Positions 6,307 to 24,614 of a stretch of 55,856 nt of DNA are shown here, in pieces; within the stretch, counting starts at the first letter, position 1, and every line of letters starts with the position of its first letter. Source of the DNA: Lachnospiraceae bacterium (GTDB lineage: Bacteria > Bacillota > Clostridia > Lachnospirales > Lachnospiraceae); NCBI GenBank assembly GCA_017461045.1, contig JAFTZJ010000026.1, positions 1-55,856 of the forward strand, written 5' to 3'. The position numbers and the translations under genes were made by a program. Under the pieces are notes generated by a model. It saw only the letters and a list, made by a program, of their open reading frames with translations. It made no database searches and had not been told where the DNA came from.

Positions 6307-6825
6307 ATGGCAAATCCAGTAGTAACAATCACAATGGAAAATGGTGACGTAATGAAGGCGGAGTTATATCCGGAAATTGCACCGATTTCTGTAAACAATT
6401 TTATCTCGTTAATTAAGAAGGGCTACTATGATGGTTTGATTTTCCATCGTGTAATCAGTGGCTTTATGATTCAGGGCGGATGTCCGGAAGGAATTGGTAC
6501 CGGTGGTCCTGGTTACAGCATTAAGGGTGAGTTCACCATGAACGGCGTAGCAAATGACTTAAAGCATACAGAAGGTGTATTGTCTATGGCACGTGCTATG
6601 CATCCGGATTCAGCAGGTTCTCAGTTCTTTATCATGCACAAGACATCACCACATTTGGATGGTTCTTACGCAGCATTTGGTAAAATCATTGAGGGTATGG
6701 ATGTTGTAAATAAGATTGCAGAGACCAGAACCGATTATTCTGACCGTCCGGTAGAAGACCAGAGAATGAAAACCGTTACCGTAGATACCTTTGGTGTGGA
6801 GTATCCGGAACCGGAAAAAATGTAA
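6307..6825 (+). CDS. Cyclophilin-type peptidyl-prolyl cis-trans isomerase
   Basis: Catalyses proline isomerisation during protein folding. The 172-residue single domain has IFHRVISGFMIQGG (catalytic Arg48, Gln55), GSQFFI and LDGSYAAFGKIIEGMDVV, all canonical cyclophilin motifs. No signal peptide is present, so it acts in the cytoplasm. The start follows AGGAGG with an 8-base spacer. It sits 15 bases after the LysA-like gene and ahead of mltG. Confidence 0.95.
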   Translation: MANPVVTITMENGDVMKAELYPEIAPISVNNFISLIKKGYYDGLIFHRVISGFMIQGGCPEGIGTGGPGYSIKGEFTMNGVANDLKHTEGVLSMARAMHPDSAGSQFFIMHKTSPHLDGSYAAFGKIIEGMDVVNKIAETRTDYSDRPVEDQRMKTVTVDTFGVEYPEPEKM

Positions 6826-6870
6826 GTAAACAAGGAAACAGATGAATTCGTATAAGCAAAGGTGGTACAA

Positions 6871-7914
6871 ATGAAGAATCCAAAACCATTAATTGTCATA
6901 TCCGTTATCTTAGTTGTAATTCTTGCAAGTATGATTTATGGATATAGTCAATATAAGATTTATCAGGATGAATACCAGGGAATGGAAACCACAGCAGGAG
7001 AAGATGTGGTGATTGTAGTTCCGGAAGGGGCGACAACCAAGCAGATAGCACAGATTTTGAAGGATAACGGCTTGATTCAGTTTCCGTCTGCATTCGTAAA
7101 GCGTGTAAAGGAATCTGAATACCGTGGTTTATTACAACCGGGTGAATTCACTTTGAATACCGGTATGAATACATGGGAAATGATTGAAATACTGGGCTAT
7201 GTTGCACCGGCAAAAACAGTGGTTGCAACGGTAACGTTCCCGGAAGGATTTTCCATTGAGCAGATGGCGGCAAGAGTAGAAGCAGAAGGAATCTTTACAG
7301 CTGATGAATTTTTGGCTGCTGTAGAAGAAGACACATATACTTATGACTTCTTAGAAAGTATTCCGGAAGGAACAACCATTAAATATCGTTTACAGGGCTT
7401 CTTATTCCCGGCAACCTATGACATCTATGATGATACAACTGCTCATGATTTGGTTGATATGATGTTGCAGAAGTTTGACCAGGTATATTCGGAAGAAATG
7501 CGAGCTCAGGCTACTACAATGGGCTATTCTGCATTTGAATTGGTGAATCGTGCTTCGATTGTAGAACGGGAAGCAAAATTAGATGAAGAGCGTCCAATCA
7601 TTGCAGGCGTTATCAATAACCGTTTGGATCAGGGAATGATGCTTCAAATGTGTCCGACAGTATTATATCCGGTTACAGACGGAATGTATGATAAGGGCGA
7701 AGTAACCTATGATGATTTGGAAGTAGTTTCAGCATATAATACCTATAAGAACACAGGGCTTCCGGTTGGACCGATTTGTAGTCCGGGTGAGACTTCCTTA
7801 CGGGCGGTCTTATATCCACAGGAACATACCTACTTGTATTATCATGTAGAAAACGAAGAAACCGGTAGTCATATCTTTACAGAGACTTATGAAGAACATG
7901 TAATTACACAGTAA
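6871..7914 (+). CDS. mltG: Endolytic murein transglycosylase MltG (YceG family)
   Basis: A membrane-anchored lytic transglycosylase that cuts nascent glycan strands and so limits their length. Residues 7-25 are a single N-terminal membrane anchor with the catalytic part outside. A LysM-like segment (VIVVPEGATTKQIAQILKD) precedes the YceG domain, which has the catalytic Glu in ASIVERE, then GVINNRL and the C-terminal NTY...GLPVGPICSPG motif. I chose ATG 6871 because AAAGGTGG at 6858-6865 is a ribosome binding site that would lie inside the coding region if the GTG at 6862 were used. The length of 347 residues is normal. Confidence 0.94.
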   Translation: MKNPKPLIVISVILVVILASMIYGYSQYKIYQDEYQGMETTAGEDVVIVVPEGATTKQIAQILKDNGLIQFPSAFVKRVKESEYRGLLQPGEFTLNTGMNTWEMIEILGYVAPAKTVVATVTFPEGFSIEQMAARVEAEGIFTADEFLAAVEEDTYTYDFLESIPEGTTIKYRLQGFLFPATYDIYDDTTAHDLVDMMLQKFDQVYSEEMRAQATTMGYSAFELVNRASIVEREAKLDEERPIIAGVINNRLDQGMMLQMCPTVLYPVTDGMYDKGEVTYDDLEVVSAYNTYKNTGLPVGPICSPGETSLRAVLYPQEHTYLYYHVENEETGSHIFTETYEEHVITQ

Positions 7915-7974: not shown

Positions 7975-10095
7975 TTATTCTTTATGAATGTGGTTTCCGT
8001 CGCCTCTTATTATCAGTCCCTCAACATACTCGTAAGTATCTAAGGAATACGAACTGAAACGATTGCCGTTAATCAGATACAGATAATCATCAATGTATAA
8101 TCCGCGGATATTATAGAAATTAGTGCTGTATTCTGCTATGCCGTCGGCCAGAATTTCATCCTCGGAAAGTGCACACGTGAATTCTTCATGGAAGCCTTTT
8201 CCTTCAACATAAGAGTAAATGGCGTAGGCTTCTACGTACTCATACGTTGTTTCGTCATAACACTCTGTATAGAAGCCAATAAGGTTCATTTCCGGATCAA
8301 TTAACAGAGACTTGTGATTGTACTGTGCAACGGAATAGTAGGCATTTTTCAATACGGTTTTGTCTGCCTCTGTAATGTTATACGGGTCGGAAATATCGAA
8401 CATGGATAACTTTAATCCCATGAATTCTCCGGTAATCGGATTAATTTCCTCACCGAATCCAAAAAGCAAATCCTCAGAATAGAAATGTAAATAGTTAGAA
8501 AATCCCGGTATTTTTAAGGCGTCCATAATCTCTGGATTCTCCGGGTCTGACAAATCCACTGCGAACAGAGGGTCAGTTTCCCGGTAGGTAACAAAGTAAC
8601 CAACATCTCCCATAAAGCGGGCGGAATATACCCGTTCATCCGGTGCCAGATTATCAATGGTGCCAACCAACTGCATTTGCTTGTTAATTACATAAAGGGC
8701 ATTTTCATTGTCAACAGTAGCAACCAAACGTAAGTATCCGTCGTATTCGTCCATAGAGAATTGATTTAGTAAATATCCATCTACAGCAATCGAACCTTCC
8801 GGCTGGATAATTCCGTCCTTATAATGGAATCTTAAAATTTCTGTTTGGTATCCCTCGGTACCATAAACGCCGCCCCAGGTGGTTTGAGCAAAAAAGATAT
8901 GCTCCGTACTTACATAGTAGGTTCCGGTTCTGGATAACACCGCCTTAGAGCTGACAAAGGAGTCTGCTTGGTTAATATCCATACCCGTCATGATTTGATA
9001 AATAGAAGCGTTCGGACAGGTAGGTAAATAAATATCCGGACATAACAGTAGTTCTCCGTTTACGTTAGGAACATAGGCTTCATAGGCACGATGGTGATTT
9101 GGTACCTGAGTATGCTTAATAGAAAATGTGTACAAGTATCCGTCCACCAGACGAGAACTATTGTAGCTTCCGTCTTGAGAAGTGACGCCAAGAACCTTTG
9201 GTTTAGAAGGGGTGCTCACATCATAGGTTAGGATATATGTGATAGAGAGACTATCCGGTACACCATAACTGACTTGTCGCCAGGTTCCGTTTGTCTGAGT
9301 TCCGACACATAACAGAATCAATCTGTTATCACAGATATACATTTCCCGGATGTTGAAATCATCACAAGCAATGGCTTTGCTGATTTCTTCCGGAGATATA
9401 GTTGCAGCTGCACGTAATGTGCCGTTGTCTGCTTTTGCAATAGCTACGGCATTCGTGGTGTAGTCACGCTCTGAGTAGCAGGAATAAATGTAACTGCCAT
9501 CTGTTTTTACAATATCTGCTTCTGCCACAGCCTCCACTTGGTTATTCGTATCGGAATACCGATGGGTATCGGTGGTATTGGTGGCACTGGAACCAGCCTC
9601 GGTGGAGTCGAAAGAAGCACCATCGGAAGCTACAGCATTTTCCTGTATTGCCCCATCTGTTTCAAAATAAATCTCCGGTTCGGAAAATTCGTCAAGAATA
9701 CCGAATAATTCCTTGTAGTCCTCCGGTGTGGCAATCGGATGATTTCCAGCATTACAATCGCCGGTCTCATCAATAGATTCCGCACACGCTGAGTCATCTT
9801 CAAACACCGCGTTATCGGCAACTTCATTTTTTTCTGTATCCATAGCGTTGCCCTCCATAGAAGAGGAGTCCATGGAATTATTTGGCTGTTGGTTAAGACC
9901 GATAATAATCGCCGATGTGATTATACCAAGCAGAGCAAAGCTTGCGGCGACATTCATCCACGGATGCTGATACCAGCGTTTGCGGCGGGGTGGTTCGTTT
10001 AGGTTATCTAAAATATGTTCCGGTGAAAGGCTTTCGGGAATCGGTGTTTCTTCAGTGATTTCCCGAATCCGTTGTTGAAAATCTTGTTCGTTCAT
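7975..10095 (-). CDS. Membrane anti-sigma-like protein with extracytoplasmic beta-propeller domain
   Basis: A 706-residue protein. Residues 1-45 are a hydrophilic, charged cytoplasmic segment; 47-67 are a single membrane helix; the rest is extracytoplasmic. After an acidic linker (about 70-165), the region from about 170 to the end has repeating four-stranded blade patterns resembling the bacterial beta-propeller family PF09826. The gene follows an ECF sigma factor by 14 bases, the classical sigma/anti-sigma arrangement, so the N-terminus probably sequesters the sigma factor and the propeller senses an external signal (inference). I chose ATG 10095, which has AAAGGAG with proper spacing; a TTG 18 bases upstream overlaps the sigma stop codon and is less likely. 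Confidence 0.78.
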   Translation of the reverse strand: MNEQDFQQRIREITEETPIPESLSPEHILDNLNEPPRRKRWYQHPWMNVAASFALLGIITSAIIIGLNQQPNNSMDSSSMEGNAMDTEKNEVADNAVFEDDSACAESIDETGDCNAGNHPIATPEDYKELFGILDEFSEPEIYFETDGAIQENAVASDGASFDSTEAGSSATNTTDTHRYSDTNNQVEAVAEADIVKTDGSYIYSCYSERDYTTNAVAIAKADNGTLRAAATISPEEISKAIACDDFNIREMYICDNRLILLCVGTQTNGTWRQVSYGVPDSLSITYILTYDVSTPSKPKVLGVTSQDGSYNSSRLVDGYLYTFSIKHTQVPNHHRAYEAYVPNVNGELLLCPDIYLPTCPNASIYQIMTGMDINQADSFVSSKAVLSRTGTYYVSTEHIFFAQTTWGGVYGTEGYQTEILRFHYKDGIIQPEGSIAVDGYLLNQFSMDEYDGYLRLVATVDNENALYVINKQMQLVGTIDNLAPDERVYSARFMGDVGYFVTYRETDPLFAVDLSDPENPEIMDALKIPGFSNYLHFYSEDLLFGFGEEINPITGEFMGLKLSMFDISDPYNITEADKTVLKNAYYSVAQYNHKSLLIDPEMNLIGFYTECYDETTYEYVEAYAIYSYVEGKGFHEEFTCALSEDEILADGIAEYSTNFYNIRGLYIDDYLYLINGNRFSSYSLDTYEYVEGLIIRGDGNHIHKE

Positions 10096-10109
10096 CTGCA
10101 ATTCTCCTT

Positions 10110-10619
10110 TCAAATAATATGTAAATCAGCTTCCATCTTGTCCATGGCACGACTTTTTATGGAACGTAATGTGCCGGCTTTCATATTCAGAAGCTTTGCG
10201 GCTTCTTCGTTGTTGTATCCGGCAAAAATAGTCATGGAAAGAATGAGCCGTTCGTTATGGTTTAATTTGGCAAATGCGTTTCGGACATCTTGGATTTCAG
10301 CATAATTTCGGTCCGGTATATGAATCTCAGTGTTTAATTCTAAGGTGCGATTCGTATAACGTTTTAGTTGCATTTTGCATTTATTTGTCAAAATCTTAAA
10401 AATCCAAGGACGAAAGGCAGACGCGGAACGCAGCTTACGAATTGAGGAATAAGCATCTGCAACTGTATCGCTTACCATATCTTCTGCATCCTCCGGATTG
10501 CCCAGAGTATAAAGTGCAAAACGATACAAGTCCTTATAAACCATTGTATATAATTGAGCAAATGCTTCGCTGTCTCCTTGGCTGGCACGGCGAACCAGTA
10601 ATTCTTCCTGTGTGTCCAT
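10110..10619 (-). CDS. ECF-type RNA polymerase sigma factor
   Basis: A 169-residue sigma-70 family protein with only regions 2 and 4. Region 2 includes LYRFALYTLGNPEDAEDMVSDT (core-binding and -10 recognition) and FRPWIFKIL. Region 4 is a helix-turn-helix around YNNEEAAKLLNMKAGTLRSI near the C-terminus. The ATG follows AAAGGAGGACCTGC. It is co-transcribed with the membrane beta-propeller protein downstream, its likely anti-sigma factor. ECF factors usually activate their own operon; a possible site is noted in the findings. Confidence 0.93.
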   Translation of the reverse strand: MDTQEELLVRRASQGDSEAFAQLYTMVYKDLYRFALYTLGNPEDAEDMVSDTVADAYSSIRKLRSASAFRPWIFKILTNKCKMQLKRYTNRTLELNTEIHIPDRNYAEIQDVRNAFAKLNHNERLILSMTIFAGYNNEEAAKLLNMKAGTLRSIKSRAMDKMEADLHII

Positions 10620-10770: not shown

Positions 10771-10799
10771 TTGACATTTGAAGTATAGAGGCGTATGCT
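10771..10799 (+). promoter_or_regulatory. Promoter of the FHA / phosphatase / kinase operon
   Basis: A perfect TTGACA (10771-10776), 17-base spacer and TATGCT (10794-10799). A-rich DNA directly upstream could act as an UP element. The predicted start of transcription is near 10806, leaving a 50-base leader to the FHA gene. Confidence 0.75.
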
Positions 10800-10856
10800 A
10801 GAAATAGCGTTTTATACTTATTTATAAGGGAAACTAGGGAATTTAGGGAGGTTACT

Positions 10857-12533
10857 ATGAAATTAGAATTATTAAAGCATTCTTTTCGTGACAACAGAAA
10901 TGTAATGGAATATCAGACACAACCGGGTGAAATGATGGAAGGTCCGGTGTTAAAGCAATTTAAGGAAGGCAAGATTCCGGGCGTATTGATGATGGGTGCA
11001 GCCTATGAAGATGGCCGGAACTATATGTATGCGTATGTGGATGATAAGGATACATTTGCCGGCCGATTAGAGGATGTAGTTACACAGGAATTGATTTTAA
11101 CCTCGTTTGAAAGTATTGTCAGCACATTGATTCGTATGGATGAAGCAGGAATTAATCTTGCATATGCAGTGCTTGATACAAAGGGAATCTATATAGATGA
11201 TGAAGCAAAGAAGGCAAGATTGGTTTGTATGCCAACTAAGAATGCAACCTCTGAGGTCGAGCAGTTGCCGGAATTCTTCCGTAATATTTTGGCTAATGCA
11301 GTTTATTTGAATAGTGATGATGGAAATTATGTTGCAAAATTATTGACTGCAGTGAATCGGGAATTTGAATTTAAGTCGTTCCTGCGCACTTTGCATGGTT
11401 TGATGATGGATGCAGGAATTGAGATTGTTGAAGAGACAATAGAAGAAGAACCGGTAGAACCAGTAGTGGCAGAACCGGTAGCAATGCCAGTAGTCGAACC
11501 GATAGTAGCAGAGCCGATAGTAGAAGCAATGGCAGAACCAATAGTAGCAGAGCCGGTAGTAGAAGCAATGGCAGAACCGGTAGTAGCAGAGCCGGTAGTA
11601 GAACCAATGGCAGAACCGGTAGCAATGCCAGTAGTAGAACCAGTGGCAGAGCCGGTAGCGCCGGCGACACCAGTAATGCCGGAAGTACCGGTACAACCGG
11701 TTGTTTCAGCAGCAGGTGTAATTGTGGAAGATGAAATTGAATTCGAACCGATGCCGGAAGAATTAAGTGCTAAGATTGAACGTATGAATGCGGAAACGAC
11801 GGCACCGGTAGTAGAACCAGTAGTAGCAGAACCGGTAGCGGCACCGATAGTAGAACCGGTAGTGGCAGAGCCGGTAGCAATGCCAGTAGTAGAACCAGTA
11901 GTGGCAGAGCCTGTAGCAATGCCAGTAGTAGAACCGGTAGTGGCAGAGCCTGTAGCAATGCCAGTAGTAGAACCGGTAGTGGCAGAGCCTGTAGCAATGC
12001 CAGTAGTAGAACCAGTAGTGGCGGAACCTGTAGCAGAGCCAGTGGCAGAGCCTGCAGTAGAACCAGTAGCAGAACCGGTAGTGGCAGAGCCTGTAGCAAT
12101 GCCAGTAGTAGAACCGGTAGCAACACCAGTGGCAGAGCCAGTGGTAGCACCTGCACCAGGACCGGTAGTAACACCATCAATGAGTCCACAACCTTTGATT
12201 ACACCGGAAGCGGCAGGATTAAAGGCACCAAAGGTTCCAAGTCCACATTTGATAAGAAGTAAGACAGGGGAACGCATTGATTTGCCGGATACAGATTTCA
12301 TAATTGGTAAGTCTCAAATCGGTGTGAATTATACGGTAACAGATAACTCAGCAGTTAGTCGGGTACATTGTACAATTACTCGAAAGAATGGTGCATTTTA
12401 TATTCGAGATGAGAAATCAACCAATTGTACCTATGTAAATGGAGAACAAGTACTTCCGGGAACTGAGAAATTATTATTAAATAATTGTAAAATAGTCCTG
12501 GGAGATGAAGAATTCACATATAGCTTGTGGTAA
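10857..12533 (+). CDS. FHA-domain protein with DUF6382-like N-terminus and long V/E/P/A repeat linker
   Basis: A 558-residue cytoplasmic protein in three parts. Residues 1-190 form a globular domain resembling DUF6382, a domain found at the N-terminus of clostridial FHA proteins. Residues about 200-450 are an almost pure Val/Glu/Pro/Ala/Met repeat (units such as PVVEPVVAEPVAM), probably an extended spacer. Residues 469-558 are a forkhead-associated domain with IIGKS (Lys in place of the usual Arg), VSRVHC (Ser501, Arg502, His504) and STNCTYVNG (Asn528-Gly529), the residues that grip phosphothreonine. It opens the operon with PP2C, kinase and an ETSVL-repeat protein, so it is the probable reader of their phosphorylation. 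Confidence 0.88.
   Translation: MKLELLKHSFRDNRNVMEYQTQPGEMMEGPVLKQFKEGKIPGVLMMGAAYEDGRNYMYAYVDDKDTFAGRLEDVVTQELILTSFESIVSTLIRMDEAGINLAYAVLDTKGIYIDDEAKKARLVCMPTKNATSEVEQLPEFFRNILANAVYLNSDDGNYVAKLLTAVNREFEFKSFLRTLHGLMMDAGIEIVEETIEEEPVEPVVAEPVAMPVVEPIVAEPIVEAMAEPIVAEPVVEAMAEPVVAEPVVEPMAEPVAMPVVEPVAEPVAPATPVMPEVPVQPVVSAAGVIVEDEIEFEPMPEELSAKIERMNAETTAPVVEPVVAEPVAAPIVEPVVAEPVAMPVVEPVVAEPVAMPVVEPVVAEPVAMPVVEPVVAEPVAMPVVEPVVAEPVAEPVAEPAVEPVAEPVVAEPVAMPVVEPVATPVAEPVVAPAPGPVVTPSMSPQPLITPEAAGLKAPKVPSPHLIRSKTGERIDLPDTDFIIGKSQIGVNYTVTDNSAVSRVHCTITRKNGAFYIRDEKSTNCTYVNGEQVLPGTEKLLLNNCKIVLGDEEFTYSLW
11445..12180 (+). repeat. In-frame degenerate tandem repeats encoding the V/E/P/A linker
   Basis: GTAGTAGAACC-, GTAGTGGCAGAGCC- and GTAGCAATGCCA-type blocks recur. 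The clearest stretch (about 11870-12040) has four near-identical 39-base units, each 13 codons. Because the unit is a multiple of three, copy-number change would keep the reading frame. The reverse strand contains long open frames only because of this repeat. Confidence 0.85.
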
Positions 12534-12559
12534 ATAACCACGATTAAAGGAGAAGAGGG

Positions 12560-13333
12560 ATGAATTTTTTTGCTTCATACAATACAGATATAGGCTTGCG
12601 TAAACATACCAATCAGGATTCCATAGCAATTAAAATGCTGGATACCCCTCAGGGTCGTGCTGTATTTGCGGTTGTTTGTGATGGAATGGGTGGATTGGCA
12701 GCAGGAGAATTGGCCAGCAAGGAAGTGATTCAGGCTTTTTGTGACTGGTTTGATCATTCATTTGCAAAACAAGCAGCTGATAATGCATTTCAAGTAGAAC
12801 AGACACTGACAGAATGGAGAGAACTGGCAATCGCAGAGAATGCGAAGTTAGGAGTATATGGTGCTCAGAATAATGCCGGATTAGGTACTACATTATCTGC
12901 GTTGTTAATATATCAGAATCAGTATCTGATTGTGCATGTGGGAGACAGTCGTATATATGAAATGAACGCAGAGGGTATGCGTCAGATAACAGAAGATCAA
13001 TCGGTAGTGGCAAGAGAAATTGCTGCCGGTAGACTGACACCGGAAGAGGCGTTGAGAGATCCGAGAAGAAGTATTTTGTTGCAATGTATTGGCGCGTCGC
13101 CTACGGTAGAACCTGCATTTTATCAAGGAAATGTAGAGTCGGAGACAACTTATCTGGTATGCTCAGATGGATTTTGCCATGAAGTGAGTTCGCAGGAAAT
13201 ATATGAAAATATGGGACCGCAAGCATGTGAGAATCCGGTTGTTATGAGACAGAATTGTGTATATTTAACAGATTTAGTGAAGCAAAGAAAAGAGCAGGAT
13301 AATATATCTATAGTGCTTTTGAAAGCCTATTAA
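12560..13333 (+). CDS. PP2C-family (PPM) Ser/Thr protein phosphatase
   Basis: Removes phosphate from Ser/Thr residues, using two metal ions. The 257-residue single catalytic domain begins with KHTNQDS (metal-binding Asp20), then VVCDGMGGLAAGE (Asp41-Gly42), TTLSALLIYQ, IVHVGDSRIY and the C-terminal QDNISIVLL (Asp about 247). No membrane segment, so cytoplasmic. It lies 26 bases after the FHA gene and 15 bases before the kinase; paired PP2C and Hanks kinase genes in Firmicutes usually act on the same substrates. The ATG follows AGGAGAAGAGGG. Confidence 0.95.
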   Translation: MNFFASYNTDIGLRKHTNQDSIAIKMLDTPQGRAVFAVVCDGMGGLAAGELASKEVIQAFCDWFDHSFAKQAADNAFQVEQTLTEWRELAIAENAKLGVYGAQNNAGLGTTLSALLIYQNQYLIVHVGDSRIYEMNAEGMRQITEDQSVVAREIAAGRLTPEEALRDPRRSILLQCIGASPTVEPAFYQGNVESETTYLVCSDGFCHEVSSQEIYENMGPQACENPVVMRQNCVYLTDLVKQRKEQDNISIVLLKAY

Positions 13334-13348
13334 ATCAGGGAGAAAAAG

Positions 13349-15427
13349 ATGACAGATAAAGGTACAGTTTTAGACGGAAAATATGAAATATTGAAGGAAA
13401 TTGGCCGGGGTGGTATGTCTGTAGTTTATGTTGCTATGGACTTGCGACTGAACAAGCAGTGGGCGATTAAGGAAATCAAGGATGACGGCTCTAAGGATAC
13501 CCAGACGCTTTTGAAAGGATTAGAGCGGGAAGCGAATATCCTGAAGAAGGTAGACCATCCGGTATTACCACGAATTGTTGATATTATCCAGAAGGACAGC
13601 AAGGTATACGTTGTCATGGATTACGTGGAAGGTCGTCCGATTAGTGAAGTGCTAAAGGAGCAGGGGGCTCAGCCACAGGAGTTGGTAATTGAGTGGGCAA
13701 AGCAGTTGAGTAGTGCTTTGGATTATCTGCATTCCATGAATCCGCCAATCATTTATCGTGATATGAAGCCGTCTAATATTATGTTAAAGCCGGATGGTAA
13801 TGTGAAGCTGATTGACTTTGGTACAGCAAAGGAATATAAGATAGAAAATAATGCAGATACAACTGCGCTTGGTACCAGAGGGTATGCGGCTCCGGAGCAG
13901 TTCGGTGATGCTCAGGGTAGAGGTATCTATAATACCGACGCAAGAACAGACATATACTGTTTGGGGGCAACCTTATATCATATTGTAACGGGAATGAATC
14001 CTTGCGAACCACCATATGAAATCAAACCGATTCGTCAGTGGAATCCGGCATTGTCCAGTGGTTTGGAGAAGATATTAATTAAGTGTACCCAACCAAATCC
14101 AAATGACCGTTATCAGTCTTGTTCAGAATTGCTGTATGCCTTAGATCATTATGATGAATTGGATGAGCAATTCAAGAAGAAGGAACGAAAGAAGTTTGGT
14201 GCTTTTGCAGCGATGGTAGCGTTATGTTTGCTGTTTTCTATTGTATCGGTAACCGGTTTTACAGGCAAGCGAAATATGACCAATGAACACTATATGAGTA
14301 TAATATCGACTGGTGACGAGTTGCGTTATCGTGGAGATTATGAAGCCGCCATAGCAGAATATCAAAACGCAATTGCAGTGGATTCTCGAAATGAAGAGGC
14401 GTATATCCGGATTTTAAGTGTATATACAAATGATTTGGATAATGCAGATAAAGGATTGGAAACAATTGCTTCTTATATCAACAGTAACAAACAATTGACC
14501 AAGAATAATCGGCTTCTTTACGAGGTGGGAATGGCTTATTTTGATATGCGAAGCTACGATGCGTCTCTCAAATACTTCCGAATGATTAATGAGAAGAATG
14601 ACGAATATGGAGAAAATGCGAAGCATTACATAGCGGTGGCAATGATAATGTCCCAGCCAAATCCGGATTATGAGGAACTGGCAGTCGACTTAGCCGAGTT
14701 CGAATCCAATAATGCAGGTATGCCGATTGGAGAAGCTAAGTTTATGAATTACAAGATTCTTGGTATGGTTTATACAAGGAATATCAATAATATCGAAGGT
14801 GCAGATGAATCGGCGATTCGTGTATTGACGTCTGCGCTGGAGGATTTGACAGAGAATGGAAATGCAATCAGTAATACATCTGAGTATTACTATTATTATA
14901 ATCTGTATTTGATTTCTGCTTATCAAAGCGTTGCAGAGAATAGTGAAGACACGGCAGAAGCAGAGATTTACTATTATGAAGCGTTGACCTGTTGCGACAA
15001 CGTATTGTCACAGATTGATAAAGAAGAACGGGCAACCATTTATGAAAATGTATTGATTAGTAAGGCGGAGATTTATGCAGCACTTGGACAACATGCAAAT
15101 GCAGTTTCAATGTTCAAGGAAGCAGAGGGGCTGATGGGTGAAAATGGTCAGTCTGTATATGTTAGCCATCTGAGATTTTTATATGATGCATATAAAGCAA
15201 AGGATCCGGATGTATCCTCCTGGGATGCCCCGGATATCATAGAGGTCTATAACGAAGGTAAAGAAATTCCGGGTATAAGTGAGAATTTCGAGTGGAAGGC
15301 ACTGGTAAACAGCTTGCAACCACTGCTGAATCGTGTGCCGGAGACTCCGGAGGAGACCGATTTAGAAACAAGTGAAGATGCTGATACAGAAACGGATAAT
15401 AGTACAGAAACAATACAGGAGGAGTAA
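13349..15427 (+). CDS. Transmembrane Hanks-type Ser/Thr protein kinase with C-terminal TPR region
   Basis: A 692-residue receptor-like kinase. Residues 11-270 form a complete kinase domain: GRGGMSVVY glycine loop (19-27), WAIKEI lysine (41), IIYRDMKPSNIM catalytic loop (Asp138), LIDFG metal motif (Asp156) and an activation loop with TTALGTRGYAAPE. Residues 283-305 are a membrane helix. Residues about 310-650 contain TPR-like helix pairs (GDYEAAIAEYQNAIAVD and similar), predicted outside the cell, followed by an acidic Glu/Thr tail. There are no PASTA repeats, so it is not the usual cell-wall-sensing PrkC type. It is encoded between the phosphatase and the ETSVL-repeat protein, its likely target. 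Confidence 0.95.
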   Translation: MTDKGTVLDGKYEILKEIGRGGMSVVYVAMDLRLNKQWAIKEIKDDGSKDTQTLLKGLEREANILKKVDHPVLPRIVDIIQKDSKVYVVMDYVEGRPISEVLKEQGAQPQELVIEWAKQLSSALDYLHSMNPPIIYRDMKPSNIMLKPDGNVKLIDFGTAKEYKIENNADTTALGTRGYAAPEQFGDAQGRGIYNTDARTDIYCLGATLYHIVTGMNPCEPPYEIKPIRQWNPALSSGLEKILIKCTQPNPNDRYQSCSELLYALDHYDELDEQFKKKERKKFGAFAAMVALCLLFSIVSVTGFTGKRNMTNEHYMSIISTGDELRYRGDYEAAIAEYQNAIAVDSRNEEAYIRILSVYTNDLDNADKGLETIASYINSNKQLTKNNRLLYEVGMAYFDMRSYDASLKYFRMINEKNDEYGENAKHYIAVAMIMSQPNPDYEELAVDLAEFESNNAGMPIGEAKFMNYKILGMVYTRNINNIEGADESAIRVLTSALEDLTENGNAISNTSEYYYYYNLYLISAYQSVAENSEDTAEAEIYYYEALTCCDNVLSQIDKEERATIYENVLISKAEIYAALGQHANAVSMFKEAEGLMGENGQSVYVSHLRFLYDAYKAKDPDVSSWDAPDIIEVYNEGKEIPGISENFEWKALVNSLQPLLNRVPETPEETDLETSEDADTETDNSTETIQEE

Positions 15428-15430
15428 GAG

Positions 15431-16177
15431 ATGGCCACGATATTTACCATATTAGCGTATGGCGGATTGGCACTGGCTGTCATCTGCCTCATAATAGCAG
15501 CGGTATTCTTCTTTCTATGGGATATACCTAAGATTCTGGGAAATATAACCGGACGTAATGAGAAGAAGAGTATTGAAAGAATTCGAAAAGAAGGATATGA
15601 AGCAAATGCTTCAAAGAAAACATCTATTAAAACTGCGGAGGATACCGGAAAGATTCAAGTACGTCTAACCGAAACAGACGAATTGAGTGAAAACAAACCG
15701 CCGGTAATTTCGCGAACCAGCTTAGGAAGAGCGCAACAATCCACACAAAAACCGGTGGAAAACATGCAACCAGAAGGGGATGAAACATGGCTGGAAACAG
15801 CAGTTCTATCCGGGCAGGAATTAGAGGAAGAAACTTCAGTACTTGCGGCTACACAGGAAAGTGCTGATGAGGAAGAAACTTCAGTGCTTGCAGGAGGGCA
15901 GGATTCCGAGGCGGAAACCTCGGTGCTTGCAGCTACACAAACAAATGCCACAGAAGAAGAAACTTCGGTACTTGTAGCTACACAGGTAAGTGTTGCTGAA
16001 GAAGAAACCTCAGTGCTTGCAGGAGGGCAGGATTCCGAGGAAGAAACCTCGGTGCTAGCAGGTACACAGGAAAAGGATGACATTATTCGATTGCCGGATG
16101 TTGTGTTAACAAAACCGGGAACAGTAACCAGTGTTTTGGATTTAATCATCGTTCATACGGATGATGAGGTTAGTTAG
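15431..16177 (+). CDS. Small membrane protein with six ETSVL repeats, candidate phosphothreonine scaffold
   Basis: A 248-residue protein, family not recognised. Residues 4-30 are one N-terminal membrane helix, followed by a basic stretch (about 36-70). Residues 120-212 carry six near-identical motifs of acidic residues followed by E-T-S-V-L, with threonines at 135, 150, 163, 178, 193 and 206, plus variants ETAVL (Thr123) and VTSVL (Thr233). The motif resembles the ETTSVF phosphoacceptor site of mycobacterial GarA, a kinase substrate recognised by an FHA domain. The gene lies 3 bases after the kinase stop and shares an operon with PP2C and FHA genes. Phosphorylation by the kinase and FHA docking are inference. 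Confidence 0.75.
   Translation: MATIFTILAYGGLALAVICLIIAAVFFFLWDIPKILGNITGRNEKKSIERIRKEGYEANASKKTSIKTAEDTGKIQVRLTETDELSENKPPVISRTSLGRAQQSTQKPVENMQPEGDETWLETAVLSGQELEEETSVLAATQESADEEETSVLAGGQDSEAETSVLAATQTNATEEETSVLVATQVSVAEEETSVLAGGQDSEEETSVLAGTQEKDDIIRLPDVVLTKPGTVTSVLDLIIVHTDDEVS
15830..16066 (+). repeat. Repeats encoding the ETSVL motifs
   Basis: GAAGAAAC(T/C)TC(A/G)GTRCTTGCAG-type blocks recur every 39-45 bases, all in frame, giving six copies of the ETSVL motif. Silent third-base differences between copies suggest that the peptide motif is being kept. Confidence 0.85.
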
Positions 16178-16187
16178 GAGGAAAAGG

Positions 16188-19100
16188 ATGAAGAAGAGAA
16201 TAAAACAAGGAGTAAAGCGAATAGCCGCCGTAACATTGGCAACCCTGTTGGCGTGGACACCATTTGTGGGCGTACTTCCGGGAACTATAACAAGTACATA
16301 TGCAGATGATGCCAATACATTTCGGTATTCTAGAGATGCGGGCGTTGCAAGTGTAACTATTGCTAATTCTGCTACAGGAATTCCAGTAATATTTGATCAG
16401 GATGAGGATGATGGTACCTTTTATAAGGATGGATTTACAAACACAGAGTATCAGTGTCAAATTGCATTAAGAGATGGGTTTACTTTGGTTGATAATACGA
16501 ATATAAATTATGACATGCTAACAGTTAGTCAGGAAATGCTAGACAATGACGCATCTGAAGTGGATCTTGTAATTCAGACCAAGCTGAGTGCTGAATTAGA
16601 TATTACCAATATCATGGCTACCAAGGTAAAAGAAATTTCAAGTGTGACAGTGGGTGATACTTCTCTGCCATCGATTCCTGATGGTACAGGTGGTACTAAG
16701 TACACAATCCCTGCAGATACTCTTGCATCTACACCGGTTGTGATAACGCTTACAACGAGTCCGGCTTATTATGGGTCACAAGATGCCGGATATGAATATA
16801 TGGAGCTGGTAGTAGATGCGGCGGGAAATCAATCCAGAAAATATACCTACACAACAACCGTAGGTGATTTGAAGAATGCTGGTGGAGTAATTGATATTGA
16901 TGGTAGTTTGAACGATACAGAGCAACTTTTAGTTGTTAATGGTGAAGTTACTTCCAATGCTAGAGTAACGATTAATCCATCTGATTATGGATATGATGAT
17001 ACAACTGTTTACAAGCCGATGTATGAGGGAGAAACATGTACTGTAGTGATAGAGCCAAATAATGGATATAAGGTGGTTGTGCTTGCTGATCCAGAAGAAT
17101 CGGTGGTAAGGGATAATACTTCACTTGCTATTAGTTATAATATATCTAAGGATACAACGGAAGCTCCGACAGTTGAAATAAAACTTATAGAACCGGATGC
17201 AAATGTTGAGATAGCTGGGTATTTGTCTGAATCCGAGTTTGTAATAAGTCAATATTTATTAGATAATCCGGGGAATGCACCTAATAGGTCTTTATATTTT
17301 GCGTTAGGTAAAAATGAAAATGAACTATGCGCTTGGTCTAATCCTGTGTCTGATTTTCACAGTGGTGCAAATGGACCTGTGGATATAGAGTTACCTTTGC
17401 CGGATGCGTCAGGTGAATACTACATTTATGCAAAGTTTACGAGTATAACAGGTTCTTCAGATGTGGTAGGAGTAAGGGGAATTGGCGCACAACCTATTTA
17501 TATTGATGTGACCCCGCCGGAAGTTGGTTATGATGAAAGCTATATAAAGATTGGCAATAACCAGTATGGAGAATTCGCGAGCAAAGACAAAGAAGGTACA
17601 ATTGGTACATTTTGGATAAACAAAGCCGACATAGATGCAGGTGCGGCACTTTCTATTCCGGTAAGTGATAATTACAGCAAAGAGATAACATATACAGTAG
17701 ATGCAAACCCTACTTGCGATGGTTTTCCAAAAACTGGTAGCCAGACGTCCGGTGAGGCATACAATGGAAGTTTAGAAATTCCGCTTAATCCTGTCATGGA
17801 TGGTACATGGCTTAATTATTCTATTCAGGACGTGATTGGCTCAAAGGAAAACAATGGCGTAGTAGAAAAATTCGGAAATGAAGCTACAGGCTCTCTTGAC
17901 TTAAGTAATATTAAGTATGACACGCAGGCTCCTACCCTTGATAATGTATCATTCCAAAATGAAGATGGAACGATTGCAGATACAGATCTTGTTAATTGGC
18001 AACCGAAAGCTGTGACAATGACCTTGGCAGGGGTGGAAAACACCGCAGGTAACGGAACCGGTGAAAGTGTTTCAGCTTTACAAGGGGTATATGTTTCAAT
18101 CAATGGTGTTAAACAATTGATGACCCAAAGTGGGTCCACATACTCACACTCCTTTGATGATACAGGAGACTATGTAGTAGAGATTTATGCTCGGGACAAA
18201 GCCGGTAATGAAAGCGAGCATAAGGAGTATAGAATTAAGATTGACAATGACGGTATGTCCAATGCAAAGATTACCTTTGACCCTGTTAGTAATAACTACG
18301 GCAATAATTATAGTAGTGAATTTCAGGTGAAGGCTTCTGCTGATTCTTTCTGTGGAGTGAAAGAAGCACAATTCTATTTTGAGAATGCAGATGGCCAGGA
18401 ACTTTGTCCGGTTATTACATCGAATGTTGTGACGGATAATATAGTAGCAATTACTGCACCTATCGAAGCCTTGGATGGCAATCGTAACATTTATGTAAGA
18501 ACGGTGATAACAGACCAATTAGGTCGGACGGAAGAAGTGAGAACCACCAATCCGTTCGCATGTAATACCAAGGGAGCTACAATTTCCGTTAGTACCTCAA
18601 AGGGCAGTTGGACGAATCAGTATGTTGATGTGCAGATTTCTGCAATTGACAAAACCTGTGGAGTTACAGAAGTAGAGGTATATGTAGATGGCAATCGTGT
18701 GAGCGTTACCGATACCAATGCAGACCCAAATGAATTCACAGGTGTTATCCGGGTGGATGCAACCTCCGGTTCCAGTGCAGGTACCAAGATTGAAGTATAT
18801 GCAACCAATGGTGCGTATACACGAGTAGGACTGCCGACACCGGCATATGTATATGTAGATAAGCAGGCTCCGTCTGTAGGATTTAGTGGAATTAGTGAGG
18901 GAAGTGTTTCGAATACCAGTCGCACCTTGCAGGTAAGTGTATCAGATAATATATGGCAGGCGATGGATGGGGTAAGCGTAACAGCAACCAGAACAATTGA
19001 TGGTAAAACAACAGATGTAGACCTTGCGGATATGGTTATGACCGATGCTACAACACAGAGAGGATATACCTTCTCAGAAGATGGGGTTTACGAGGTGACG

Positions 19101-20351
19101 GTAACGGCAACGGATGCTGCAGGTAATACAGATACGAAGAAGATTGGCTTCACCATTGACCGTACGGCGCCGGTATTGCAGATTACAGGAGTGACAGAAG
19201 GAGATTATCTCGGTAAGGCAGCGAATGTAGGATTTCGGGTTGTAGAAACCTTCTATGAAACCAATCGGGTAACGATTGAGGTAGAACGATCTTATCGTGG
19301 AACTACTTCAAAGAAAACCATTCCGTATACCTCAACTGGTGTGAATTCGTTGAATTCATCTGCATTTGGAGAAGATGGTGATTATACAATCACGTTTTCG
19401 GCAGTGGATCGTGCAGGTAATGAAGCGACGTCTCAGACAGTGAAGTTTACAGTGGATGTAACGGCACCAAAGGTATCCATGTCCGGTACAAAGGACTATG
19501 CAATTACCAGCGAAAACGTAACCTTGAATTTCCAGGTGGAAGAGAACTATTATGAGACAAACAGTGTAACCATCCAGGGAAGCTGTCGTTTGGCAGATGG
19601 AAAGACGGAAACGATTCGAGTTATGGGCTGGAATAATACAGCAATTAAGAGCGCAATGACGGAAACCTTTGCAAAGGACGGATACTACACGATTACGATT
19701 TCAGCAAAGGATAAAGCCGGTAATAGTACGCAGGAGACCGTGCATTTTACCATTGATACGCAGGCACCGGTAATTGCCGATATGTCCAAGTATGATGGTA
19801 AGTACATGAAGAATTTCTCCTTAGAGGAAACCTTAGAGGAATTAATTTCTGAGTTGACAGTGCCGAATGTTCGCATGACACTGAACGGAGAGGCGTATGA
19901 CGGAAGAGATATTACAGAAGATGGTAAGTATACACTTGTAATTGAAGTTGCGGATGAAGCCGGTTTGACGACAACAAAGACGGTTGAATTTGTAGTTGAT
20001 AATACCAGTCCAAAGATAATTTTGGGTGGTGTGGAAGATAAAAAAACCTATACAGAGCCGATTGTTATGAATGTGGCATTGGAGAATGAGAATGATGCCT
20101 TTGTGGAGATTCTGATTAATGGAGTGGCACAGGAACTGACAGAAGGAAAAACTGTATACGAGTATGTATTTGATGTGTTTGGTGATTACGAAGTAGAGGT
20201 TCGGACGATTGACCAGGCCGGTAATGAAAATACACAGACTTTCCAGGTTACTTATGCAGAGCATAAGACATTCCCATGGATTTGGGTATTGATTCCGTCT
20301 GTGGTTGTGGCAGCAGGACTTGTTGTAGTACTGTTGGTAAGAAAAAAATAA
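16188..20351 (+). CDS. Large Ig-repeat surface protein with signal peptide and C-terminal membrane anchor
   Basis: A 1387-residue secreted protein. It starts MKKRIKQGVKRIAAVTLATL with a basic then hydrophobic signal region and probable cleavage near TSTYA-DD. From about residue 480 onward it consists of Ig-like beta-sandwich repeats, recognisable by recurring (D/V)xxAP joins and AxDxAGN closing strands (for example YARDKAGNE, ATDAAGNTD, AVDRAGNEA, AKDKAGNST). The last 25 residues are a membrane helix followed by RKK, so it is anchored at the membrane; there is no LPXTG. I chose ATG 16188, which has GGAGGAAAAGG directly upstream; an earlier in-frame ATG at 16161 overlaps the previous gene. It closes the kinase operon, so it may be its surface output or sensor. 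Adhesin or envelope-spacer roles are possible. Confidence 0.85.
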   Translation: MKKRIKQGVKRIAAVTLATLLAWTPFVGVLPGTITSTYADDANTFRYSRDAGVASVTIANSATGIPVIFDQDEDDGTFYKDGFTNTEYQCQIALRDGFTLVDNTNINYDMLTVSQEMLDNDASEVDLVIQTKLSAELDITNIMATKVKEISSVTVGDTSLPSIPDGTGGTKYTIPADTLASTPVVITLTTSPAYYGSQDAGYEYMELVVDAAGNQSRKYTYTTTVGDLKNAGGVIDIDGSLNDTEQLLVVNGEVTSNARVTINPSDYGYDDTTVYKPMYEGETCTVVIEPNNGYKVVVLADPEESVVRDNTSLAISYNISKDTTEAPTVEIKLIEPDANVEIAGYLSESEFVISQYLLDNPGNAPNRSLYFALGKNENELCAWSNPVSDFHSGANGPVDIELPLPDASGEYYIYAKFTSITGSSDVVGVRGIGAQPIYIDVTPPEVGYDESYIKIGNNQYGEFASKDKEGTIGTFWINKADIDAGAALSIPVSDNYSKEITYTVDANPTCDGFPKTGSQTSGEAYNGSLEIPLNPVMDGTWLNYSIQDVIGSKENNGVVEKFGNEATGSLDLSNIKYDTQAPTLDNVSFQNEDGTIADTDLVNWQPKAVTMTLAGVENTAGNGTGESVSALQGVYVSINGVKQLMTQSGSTYSHSFDDTGDYVVEIYARDKAGNESEHKEYRIKIDNDGMSNAKITFDPVSNNYGNNYSSEFQVKASADSFCGVKEAQFYFENADGQELCPVITSNVVTDNIVAITAPIEALDGNRNIYVRTVITDQLGRTEEVRTTNPFACNTKGATISVSTSKGSWTNQYVDVQISAIDKTCGVTEVEVYVDGNRVSVTDTNADPNEFTGVIRVDATSGSSAGTKIEVYATNGAYTRVGLPTPAYVYVDKQAPSVGFSGISEGSVSNTSRTLQVSVSDNIWQAMDGVSVTATRTIDGKTTDVDLADMVMTDATTQRGYTFSEDGVYEVTVTATDAAGNTDTKKIGFTIDRTAPVLQITGVTEGDYLGKAANVGFRVVETFYETNRVTIEVERSYRGTTSKKTIPYTSTGVNSLNSSAFGEDGDYTITFSAVDRAGNEATSQTVKFTVDVTAPKVSMSGTKDYAITSENVTLNFQVEENYYETNSVTIQGSCRLADGKTETIRVMGWNNTAIKSAMTETFAKDGYYTITISAKDKAGNSTQETVHFTIDTQAPVIADMSKYDGKYMKNFSLEETLEELISELTVPNVRMTLNGEAYDGRDITEDGKYTLVIEVADEAGLTTTKTVEFVVDNTSPKIILGGVEDKKTYTEPIVMNVALENENDAFVEILINGVAQELTEGKTVYEYVFDVFGDYEVEVRTIDQAGNENTQTFQVTYAEHKTFPWIWVLIPSVVVAAGLVVVLLVRKK

Positions 20352-20380
20352 CACAGGAATCATATAGGAAATAAAACAAA

Positions 20381-20416
20381 CAGGGCTATCACTTGAGTGG
20401 TAGCCCTGTATTCTTT
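20381..20416. terminator. Terminator after the kinase/surface-protein operon
   Basis: A 12-bp stem (20381-20392 with 20397-20408, one G-U) closed by a TTGA loop, followed by TATTCTTTT. A-rich DNA on the left side means it may also serve the convergent GH3 gene. Confidence 0.88.
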
Positions 20417-23020: not shown

Positions 23021-23383
23021 ATGTCAACATCAATGAAGATACTGGAAGTAATCAAATCCTTAGTGGTTTCTTATGTATTCACCGGAATTGCGCTGGCGGC
23101 TTTGGCATTTGGCATATTCAAATGGAATCTGAATGAGACAGTGGTTAATATTGTGATTATGGCAATTTATGTAATTGCGTCTTTTATTGGCGGATGGATT
23201 ACCGGAAAACGTGTAAAAGAAAGAAAATTCTTCTGGGGGATGTTGTTAGGAGGGTTGTACATATTAATTATCTATGGAGTGTCTATGATTATGAGTGCCA
23301 GTCTGGATATGATTTCTACAGCAGGTATTGCTGCTTGTCTGCTTTGCCTGGGCGGAGGAATGCTAGGAGGAATGGTGAGCTAA
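23021..23383 (+). CDS. Small four-helix membrane protein, TIGR04086 family
   Basis: A 120-residue protein made almost entirely of four hydrophobic helices (about residues 12-34, 40-62, 70-92 and 98-118), with GWITGKRVKERKF between helices 2 and 3. This matches the TIGR04086/DUF3792 family of clostridial membrane proteins of unknown function. The ATG follows GAGGAAAGGCGGG at a longer than usual distance. It is divergent from the GH3 gene. A strong hairpin overlaps its 3' end. Confidence 0.78.
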   Translation: MSTSMKILEVIKSLVVSYVFTGIALAALAFGIFKWNLNETVVNIVIMAIYVIASFIGGWITGKRVKERKFFWGMLLGGLYILIIYGVSMIMSASLDMISTAGIAACLLCLGGGMLGGMVS

Positions 23384-23397
23384 GCATTCCTCCTAGC
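23362..23397 (+). other. Strong hairpin overlapping the 3' end of the TIGR04086 gene
   Basis: A perfect 13-bp stem (23362-23374 with 23385-23397) with a 10-base loop spans the last codons and stop. No T-run follows, so it is not a standard intrinsic terminator; it could protect the 3' end or pause polymerase. Confidence 0.6.
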
Positions 23398-23426
23398 CTC
23401 AAGGGGCAACTGTTCAACACTAGAGT

Positions 23427-23454
23427 TTGCGTGATTTAGGAAATGGTGTATAAT
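23427..23454 (+). promoter_or_regulatory. Probable promoter of the FecR-domain gene
   Basis: TTGCGT (23427-23432), 16-base spacer, perfect TATAAT (23449-23454), 33 bases ahead of the start codon. Confidence 0.5.
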
Positions 23455-23486
23455 GACCTCAAGTAATACACAAGGAGAAAAAGTGA

Positions 23487-24614
23487 ATGAAATCAAAAAT
23501 AGGAAAAAAGGGAATGATTGGTATTGGTGCAGTTCTTGTAGTAATCCTGGTAATAGTAGTGGTGCTAATAATGATTTTTTCTAAGAAAGAATATAGACTT
23601 GTTAAAGTCGAGAATTATGAAGGACAAGTAGATTTGCTGAGAAAGGAAAAATCAGTTCAGTTATTTGCAGATATGCAATTGATTACGGAGGACAGGGTGA
23701 CTACCGGCGAGGACGGGATTATTCAATTGCTTGCAGATTCTGATAAGCGAATTGTCGCTGAAGGAAATACCTGTTTTACAATCGAAACCAGTGGGAACGA
23801 AACAAAGGGAAACATTCGAATCAATCTTGTTTATGGCAAAGGCTTATTTACGATTGAGAATAAATTGCCGGAGGGCTCAGAGTTCCAAGTGGATACGCCC
23901 AATGCCGTCATGAGTGTCCGAGGAACAGTGTTTGAAGTGACTTACGATAATAACACTAATACGACAACGGTAACGGTTCATGAAGGTGTAGTAGAGGCGG
24001 TTGTCGGTTCGCAGGTGCGACAGGTAAATGCAGGGGAGACCTTGATTATTCAGGATGCAAATATAACAGATGGTATTTATGAATCGCTGAATACAGGTAT
24101 GGATGGAAACTCGGATGGAACTGCTCAAGAAAATGACGGAATGATTTCTCAGGATGGTGCATTTGCATATACGGATGAAATCGCCTTCTACGCAATTGAT
24201 GACGCGGGAGCAACGAATGTTGGCATTAAGACAATTGAAGCCTTCAGTATCTTAGGCTCCATGTCAGAGGGAGAAACTTTATATTATTCCTTCTATGATG
24301 AAGAAATGAATGATAGCGTGTCAATTGATTATCGTATGGAGGATGCGAGAATATATGACGGTTATGTGCAAACCTGGACGCAGGAGAAATTCTTTGGGGA
24401 AATGGCAGTGGATGAACACTATGTGAACGATGCAGGCAAAGACGTACATGTAATGATGATTGAATCCCAGAATGTTGACCATTTCCGATGCAGTTTCTTT
24501 AAGGAGATGGAAGACGGAAGATATCTGCATATGCGATTAAATGCAGCTCAGCCGGGACATGATTATGAAAAGTATGTGGTGCTTATGGATGAGTGTTATT
24601 ATGTAATTGAATAG
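23487..24614 (+). CDS. FecR-domain membrane protein
   Basis: A 375-residue protein with a short basic start, one membrane helix (about residues 10-32) and an external part. Residues about 40-195 form a FecR-like beta domain: the sequence runs from VENYEGQVDL through TGEDGIIQLLADSD to VDTPNAVMSVRGTVFEV and VHEGVVEAVVGSQVRQVNAGE. In Gram-negatives FecR signals to an ECF sigma factor, but here no sigma gene is adjacent, and in Firmicutes this domain is common in envelope proteins. The C-terminal 170 residues are not recognised. The ATG follows AAGGAGAAAAAGTGA. Confidence 0.8.
   Translation: MKSKIGKKGMIGIGAVLVVILVIVVVLIMIFSKKEYRLVKVENYEGQVDLLRKEKSVQLFADMQLITEDRVTTGEDGIIQLLADSDKRIVAEGNTCFTIETSGNETKGNIRINLVYGKGLFTIENKLPEGSEFQVDTPNAVMSVRGTVFEVTYDNNTNTTTVTVHEGVVEAVVGSQVRQVNAGETLIIQDANITDGIYESLNTGMDGNSDGTAQENDGMISQDGAFAYTDEIAFYAIDDAGATNVGIKTIEAFSILGSMSEGETLYYSFYDEEMNDSVSIDYRMEDARIYDGYVQTWTQEKFFGEMAVDEHYVNDAGKDVHVMMIESQNVDHFRCSFFKEMEDGRYLHMRLNAAQPGHDYEKYVVLMDECYYVIE

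Follow-up and report, generated by a model that had tools for sequence, protein, structure and literature searches.

A five-gene T7SSe-type operon of a Lachnospiraceae bacterium as a candidate free-standing phosphothreonine switch with a repeated Thr-x-[Val/Ile/Leu]-Leu code

We analyzed a stretch of DNA of 55,856 nucleotides (hereafter the window; positions 1 to 55,856 of contig JAFTZJ010000026.1, assembly GCA_017461045.1) from a Lachnospiraceae bacterium whose genome is 67.5% complete. The subject of the analysis is a group of five + strand genes at 10857-12533, 12560-13333, 13349-15427, 15431-16177 and 16188-20351. Their products have Pfam matches to DUF6382 and FHA (gene 1), PP2C (gene 2), a protein kinase and TPR (gene 3), no family (gene 4) and bacterial immunoglobulin (Ig) domains (gene 5), and these same-strand open reading frames (ORFs) and domains are as given in an initial annotation of the DNA. 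The genes are separated by 26, 15, 3 and 10 bases, and each is preceded by a purine-rich ribosome-binding stretch. The gap range of 3-26 bases in the initial annotation holds after one correction: the ORF list starts gene 5 at the ATG at 16161, which overlaps gene 4, and we moved the start to the ATG at 16188, behind AGGAGG. A single promoter and a single terminator had also been proposed. The intrinsic terminator is clear, with a 13-pair stem (20380..20409, +). The sigma-70-like promoter (TTGACA-17-TATGCT at 10771..10799, +) is a consensus match only and is unproven; it shares the best regional rank with seven others, and the 37 promoter-type matches in the region are not clearly above the 31.8 (standard deviation 4.6) expected from shuffles.

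The five products are of the same kinds as TseJ (DUF6382 and FHA), TseF (PPM phosphatase), TseD (kinase), TseH and TseI, components of a type VII secretion system (T7SS) variant of Bacillota, T7SSe (Garrett et al. 2024, PMC11217815). Gene 1 encodes a TseJ-type reader with DUF6382 at residues 26-156 (E 1.6e-6), a long EPV-rich linker and a C-terminal FHA domain at residues 482-549 (E 1.2e-14). A consensus over 98 aligned related FHA domains retains GK...SR.H...STN.T, residues that we take to include the conserved phosphothreonine-binding positions. The idea that DUF6382 is an EssB-like pseudokinase was unsupported, with no PDB match to its profile up to E 10 and, in a profile comparison with the module kinases, a probability of 1.3% (E 0.039). 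Gene 2 encodes a TseF-type PP2C/PPM phosphatase (PP2C_2, E 2.1e-12; NCBIfam Stp1, E 5.6e-50, at 170 bits under the cut-off of 230). Gene 3 encodes a TseD-type membrane Ser/Thr kinase, with the kinase domain at residues 12-256 (Pkinase, E 2.3e-49), one transmembrane segment at 283-301 and a TPR-like C-terminus (TPR_11, E 7.7e-8). Its activation-loop stretch DTTALGT (13856..13876, +) includes D170, T171, L174, G175 and T176, which are invariant in 15 aligned kinases; the loop reads DTT[A/N/C/V]LGT in 78 of 80 kinases and DTVSLGT in one, and one was unread.

Gene 4 encodes a TseH-type repeat protein that has one transmembrane segment (residues 11-29), a basic juxtamembrane stretch, an acidic tail and a conserved C-terminus. 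The tail contains eight T-[SA]-V-L motifs (15797..16138, +), with the threonine at residues 123, 135, 150, 163, 178, 193, 206 and 233; the eight copies vary at silent codon positions. Gene 5 encodes a TseI-type surface protein with a signal, Ig-like repeats, a C-terminal transmembrane segment and a short basic tail, as judged from Pfam, hydropathy and the revised start. The C-terminal segment was found in 50 of 59 relatives; LPXTG near the end was found in none of the 59, ruling out an LPXTG-anchored surface protein. There was no transmembrane segment in the FHA protein or the PP2C by hydropathy. Transmembrane segments and signals were assigned from hydropathy, with no signal-peptide program, and orientation was judged by eye from charge. 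On this basis the kinase domain is read as inside and its TPR C-terminus as extracytoplasmic, and the tail of the gene 4 protein is read as cytoplasmic.

The order FHA/DUF6382, PP2C, TPR kinase, repeat protein, Ig surface protein is a conserved unit in Lachnospiraceae and Bacillaceae. A single-sequence search with gene 4 gave matches in 15 of 100 genomes sampled from the same family. In the 14 relatives fetched (own genome excluded), gene 4 directly followed the kinase in every case, and an ORF of >1100 residues followed gene 4 in 12; of the two exceptions, one is cut by the contig end (locus L022) and the other has a 168-residue ORF close to a contig end (L031). We then examined the best 80 of 573 kinase-profile relatives, 79 of which have a long kinase ORF. 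In those 79 named loci, the slot immediately ahead of the kinase held PP2C in 74 of 77 cases and the slot immediately behind it held gene 4 in 73 of 78; the FHA gene stood two places ahead in 69 of 73, and a large ORF two places behind in 62 of 69 usable slots. At least some of the misses are contig ends or an opposite-strand ORF taken by the ORF caller. The 80 loci include ten from Bacillaceae (Bacillus, Mesobacillus, Neobacillus, Alkalihalobacterium), and in nine of these all five genes were recognized in the order of the window; in the tenth (L172) another ORF was called in the PP2C slot. A single gene 4 profile recognizes both the Bacillaceae and the Lachnospiraceae copies. Over 291 genomes of the class a gene 4 profile gave seven matches at E<=1e-6, including the own genome, and three of the seven lie outside the family. 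Within the family sample the gene 4 profile matched 26 genomes at E<=1e-3, of which we took 23 as real module genomes: 22 at E<1e-8 and G088, where the match adjoins a DUF6382 gene. Weak, unlinked matches in G014, G020 and G097 were excluded, and 23 is an undercount, as a gene-4-like protein of G030 was found only with a later profile.

This conserved order rejects an accidental operon and supports the proposal of the initial annotation that a writer, eraser, reader, candidate acceptor scaffold and surface protein belong together; the repeat and surface genes are kept beside the kinase and FHA genes in related genomes. The suggestion that the system is specific to this bacterial group did not hold, since the same genes occur as TseJ-F-D-H-I in Bacillaceae and also with Tad genes in other Lachnospiraceae. 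The FHA gene is often doubled (L109, L117, L127, L130, L148 and others), and L117 and L148 have three FHA-labeled ORFs before PP2C.

The repeats of the gene 4 protein follow a threonine-specific pattern across the family. We counted T-x-[VIL]-L in the tails beyond residue 60 of 76 repeat proteins, including that of the window, with expectations from shuffling. There were 525 copies compared to about 21 expected, and the versions with Ser or Ala in place of Thr numbered 24 and 8. At least two copies were present in 74 of the 76 proteins, with a range of 1-13 and a median of seven sites. Acidic residues precede the motif (Glu or Asp in 67% at -3 and at -2, and in 39% at -1); Asp (42%), Thr, Ala and Glu are frequent at +1, and Val occupies +2 in 66%. 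No enrichment of this kind was found in the controls: seen and expected counts were 18 and 25.1 for the kinase domain, 11 and 19.5 for the ectodomain, 28 and 27.1 for PP2C, 94 and 116.7 for the surface protein, and 92 and 104.5 for neighboring ORFs. In a second set of 21 relatives there were 63 copies compared to 2.6 expected and two of the Ser version, with at least one copy in 18 proteins. The shuffles and the five control sets thus reject compositional chance as the source of the motif.

The same motif recurs ahead of FHA domains. The linkers of FHA proteins had 34 copies compared to 6.7 expected, in 28 of 84 proteins, one of them the EssC of L178. In each of the ten Bacillaceae readers, one copy is found 118-125 residues from the C-terminus, immediately ahead of the FHA domain. 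From 20 stretches surrounding high-scoring DUF6382 genes elsewhere in the family we obtained 16 readable FHA proteins, which we presume to be Tad-type. A copy lies 33-49 residues ahead of the FHA core in eight of the 16, and the linkers had 12 copies in total compared to 2.5 expected, with four of the Ser version. The kinase activation loop, DTTxLGT, itself resembles the repeat. FHA domains are reported to be highly specific for phosphothreonine (PMC3146460), which fits the presence of Thr, and not Ser, in the repeats. Threonine-only repeats on a membrane protein encoded beside kinase, phosphatase and FHA genes have the look to be expected of a phosphothreonine docking strip, and the family-wide statistics support the earlier suggestion that the repeat threonines are candidate acceptors. 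There was no mention of the motif (as TxVL, TTVL or ETTVL) among the papers listed from the open-access literature searched, outside of which lie most subscription papers and bioRxiv. DUF6382 was named there in PMC11217815 alone, and among the papers listed no other used the names T7SSd and T7SSe. As far as this search reaches, the free-standing and Tad-linked forms of the module and the repeated code are new.

We put at about 0.6 the probability that the five genes form a free-standing TseJ-F-D-H-I module that works as a kinase/FHA/PP2C phosphothreonine switch at the membrane. We infer from sequence the joint function of the genes, including phosphorylation, FHA binding, sensing, signal direction and output, as follows. 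The TseD-type kinase would sense the envelope through its TPR ectodomain, autophosphorylate its DTTxLGT loop and then phosphorylate the Thr-x-Val-Leu threonines on the cytoplasmic tail of the single-pass TseH-type protein. Once phosphorylated, the tail would offer the FHA domain of the TseJ-type protein many landing sites at once, so that this protein would gather at the membrane beside the TseI-type surface protein; the TseF-type PP2C would erase the marks. In relatives with an adjoining T7SS ATPase or Tad pilus, the switch may control the assembly or activity of that machine; in the window its target may be just the surface protein, or else a partner whose gene lies elsewhere.

T7SSe has further components, the ATPase TseC, TseA, TseA2, TseB and TseK (PMC11217815). 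No EssC-like FtsK ATPase (TseC) was found in the window or, with model TIGR03928 at E<=1e-50, in the 67.5%-complete own genome, which also gave no match to WXG100 (cut-off E<=1e-3) or YukD. The locus is thus a T7SSe-type accessory module that falls outside T7SSe itself, its core having been sought and not found in an incomplete genome, and the operon appears to stand alone. The module could nevertheless be the regulatory and envelope half of a T7SS whose ATPase and WXG100 genes lie elsewhere and act in trans, and the match of all five components to T7SSe is in favor of this. In Bacillaceae, EssC was inside the fetched stretch at nine of ten loci (all but L175), and the one WXG100-size ORF scanned was a WXG100 protein. 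EssC was present in 24 of the 100 family genomes, in 11 of the 23 with the module and 13 of the 77 others (Fisher p 0.0045), which indicates association, not dependence, of module and EssC. Three family genomes have it near the module on the same contig: G095, G058 and, only as a weak fragment where the contig ends, G065. Close relatives (loci L101 and L103; genomes G100 and G101) have EssC on another contig, in G100 and G101 together with a YukD-like gene.

Other results argue against a T7SS acting in trans. Among 50 module genomes from the named loci, EssC was present in all seven from Bacillaceae and absent in 28 of the 43 others. Of the 33 EssC-less module genomes, 28, including the own genome, had no WXG100 match; three of the remaining five had a match over the family cut-off. 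One cultured strain that has the module and gave no EssC or WXG100 match is Eubacterium ruminantium ATCC 17233 (L135/G121). In an earlier set of 15 module genomes, WXG100 was found in seven, precisely those that also gave strong matches to EssC. Apart from the own genome, the module genomes without EssC in the family sample are 95-100% complete. EssC is lacking in other close relatives (loci L104 and L105; genomes G102 and G103), and G102 and G103 lack WXG100 as well. The initial annotation had proposed a self-contained unit, and the module indeed occurs in the clade of the window without an adjoining secretion ATPase. No recognized EssC or Tad genes were in the fetched stretch, some only 4.3 kb long, at 69 of the 70 non-Bacillaceae named loci; the exception, L165, has EssC. 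In a selection of 19 other EssC loci in module genomes, gene 4 was recognized in none and a surface-protein match was found only in L188. Eight of these loci have their own kinase match and ten their own short DUF6382-FHA gene. Taken together, it seems unlikely that the module is half of a T7SS in trans.

A second possibility is that the module controls the Tad pilus of the genome, its FHA protein being a paralogue of the Tad-cluster DUF6382-FHA protein. Another DUF6382-FHA gene of the own genome (L097:9723-11015, +) closes an ordinary Tad cluster, and its product has a copy of the motif (GETMVLE) before the FHA domain. We examined 13 stretches picked for promising upstream genes or a second DUF6382 match, labeling Tad genes by phmmer with proteins of L097, L020 and L024 and verifying the CpaF of L218 by Pfam. 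A module-type FHA gene was accompanied by a Tad cluster including CpaF in six (L218, L219, L220, L225, L226, L229) and by partial Tad genes in two (L217, L227); there were no linked Tad genes in the other five, among them L228, which is a separate Tad cluster. The order in L218/L020 and L219/L093 is CpaF, TadB, TadC, TadE-like, DUF5702, A24 peptidase, WG-repeat, FHA, PP2C, kinase, gene 4 and a giant ORF. L220/L095 has a similar arrangement in which gene 4 is followed by a 786-residue ORF, and L226/L029 has its Tad genes beyond the surface gene. Gene 4 was not recognized in L225 and L229. In G051 (L022) DUF5702 and a TadE protein precede the FHA gene. Against control of a Tad pilus as the role of the window's module, no Tad gene was recognized beside it or beside the modules of L101-L105 (phmmer, E<=1e-5), and DUF6382 is present in 95 of the 100 family genomes, whereas about 23 have the module. 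Provided that the high-scoring DUF6382 copies represent Tad proteins, as in G000, the majority of the family's Tad pili would have no such module. We consider this explanation quite unlikely. A separate observation is that an ORF upstream of one Tad-linked module (L024:18228-19670, -) matches TadE at its N-terminus and a TNT domain at its C-terminus and perhaps encodes a pilus-associated effector.

The copies without a detectable T7SS core and those beside Tad genes suggest that the switch is an independent unit adopted by different envelope machines. In a kinase-domain tree of 59 rows, the T7SS-linked copies (Bacillaceae, L021, L023) fall outside two supported Lachnospiraceae clades. One of these (18 rows, 100/98) includes all six Tad-linked copies that the tree contains (L020, L022, L024, L029, L093, L095), and the other (29 rows, 99/98) holds the kinase of the window. 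The tree, which has an uncertain root and leaves out the majority of kinases from other EssC loci, fits an origin in linkage with T7SS and later uncoupling; we claim no direction. There is perhaps an even chance that this is a portable phosphothreonine module with its own code, acidic-Thr-x-[Val/Ile/Leu]-Leu, which is repeated along a membrane tail and in many cases recurs ahead of the FHA domain; such a module would be attached to T7SS or to Tad pili, or would run a surface protein by itself. An independent switch would allow its function to be studied free of a confounding secretion system.

Finally, the repeats might be a phosphorylation-independent short linear motif, with the kinase and phosphatase acting on other proteins. 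The wide variation of flanks and copy number would suit such a motif. The strict preference for Thr over Ser (525:24) and Ala (525:8), the acidic flanks, the likeness to the activation loop and the linkage to FHA, kinase and PP2C genes speak against it, and we regard the phosphorylation-independent reading as highly doubtful.

Several observations weigh against a free-standing threonine-coded switch. The FHA protein of the window has no copy of T-x-[VIL]-L in the motif count, and the preference for Thr is weaker in FHA linkers (34:12) than in the tails. The motif is not universal: two of the 76 repeat proteins have only one copy, and it is absent in three of the second set of 21 (L023, L024, L096). 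The gene 4 profile was built from motif-bearing proteins and includes the motif, so that recognition is biased to such proteins and partly circular; the transmembrane segment, the juxtamembrane stretch and the position of the gene are independent of it. Among the 14 relatives fetched first, PP2C was recognized before the kinase in 12 (not in L023 and L028), and the FHA gene was directly before PP2C in eight; one of the other six is at a contig end. In the tree, the EssC-linked L091 lies within the 18-row, otherwise largely T7SS-unlinked clade, and the T7SS-unlinked L025 lies outside both Lachnospiraceae clades. The 67.5% completeness of the own genome limits the absence of core genes there.

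There are other genes of interest near the operon. Divergent from it (7975-10619, -) are genes for an ECF (extracytoplasmic function) sigma factor and for a beta-propeller-containing membrane protein, possibly its anti-sigma sensor, and this pair may drive transcription of the module. L101, L103, L104 and L105 have ORFs of similar size, strand and place upstream of the module that cluster with one another, a comparison made among these four loci. Further upstream (6307-7914, +) are a cyclophilin and MltG/YceG; clusters represented by a cyclophilin and by YceG were found at 21 and 29 of 80 loci, respectively. Downstream are a DUF3792 protein followed by a FecR-domain protein (23021-24614, +) and a radical SAM maturase for SCIFF peptides (24964-26340, +; TIGR03974, E 8e-242).

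Compared with known systems, the module is closest to T7SSe. The Bacillaceae loci show the same five-gene order, gene 1 has the two domains of TseJ, and the PP2C and membrane kinase fit TseF and TseD. TPR matches are also found in a Bacillaceae kinase (L178), and TsdD, the counterpart of TseD, has a largely helical C-terminal region (PMC11217815). TseH and TseI are described mainly through their T7SSd counterparts TsdH and TsdI (PMC11217815). Gene 4 resembles TseH in its single transmembrane segment and predicted cytoplasmic tail, which is unstructured in TseH, and gene 5 resembles TseI in being large and Ig-like with a signal and a C-terminal transmembrane segment by hydropathy. Genes like TseC, WXG100 and TseB, all part of T7SSe, were sought in the window and in the incomplete own genome and went undetected. 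Phosphorylation control of the new T7SS variants is raised as a possibility in PMC11217815, and the parts of it available to us name no site.

The Tad-cluster DUF6382-FHA protein (G000) has both domains in common with the reader of the window, but none of the ten ORFs scanned around the Tad copy is a kinase or phosphatase. The kinase resembles the PrkC/StkP PASTA kinases in that, among solved structures, its profile best matches StkP, PknB and two entries named simply as kinases, 9ymt and 4eqm. It differs in having a TPR ectodomain; there was no Pfam match to PASTA, the NCBIfam PASTA-kinase model scored 213.7 bits against a cut-off of 450, and the own genome has a separate PASTA kinase. These results reject an ordinary PrkC/StkP kinase and bear out the earlier view of this protein as not the usual cell-wall sensor. 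In Clostridioides difficile, sites altered in kinase mutants show no specific signature motif, and FHA goes unmentioned in the parts of that phosphoproteome study available to us (PMC9674922).

In GarA a phosphorylated ETTS motif lies N-terminal to the FHA domain (PMC5448819, PMC12321487). The candidate motif of the Bacillaceae TseJ-type proteins has the same place as that of GarA/OdhI, just before the FHA domain, but GarA is a metabolic regulator, and in the module the majority of copies belong to a membrane protein distinct from the reader. A proven precedent is the type VI secretion system (T6SS) of Agrobacterium, in which PpkA phosphorylates the inner-membrane protein TssL, and Fha then binds TssL (PMC3953482; PMC5995506). 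That threonine phosphorylation pathway (PpkA, PppA, Fha, TssL) likewise has a kinase, its cognate phosphatase, an FHA reader and an inner-membrane docking protein. TssL has one site, whereas the repeat proteins have a median of seven, and we do not claim that the docking proteins are homologous. If our reading is correct, the T6SS pathway would have in this module a general counterpart in Bacillota, one that docks its reader multivalently where TssL offers a single site, and the T-x-V-L repeats would offer a concrete, testable pair of substrate and reader for the whole family.

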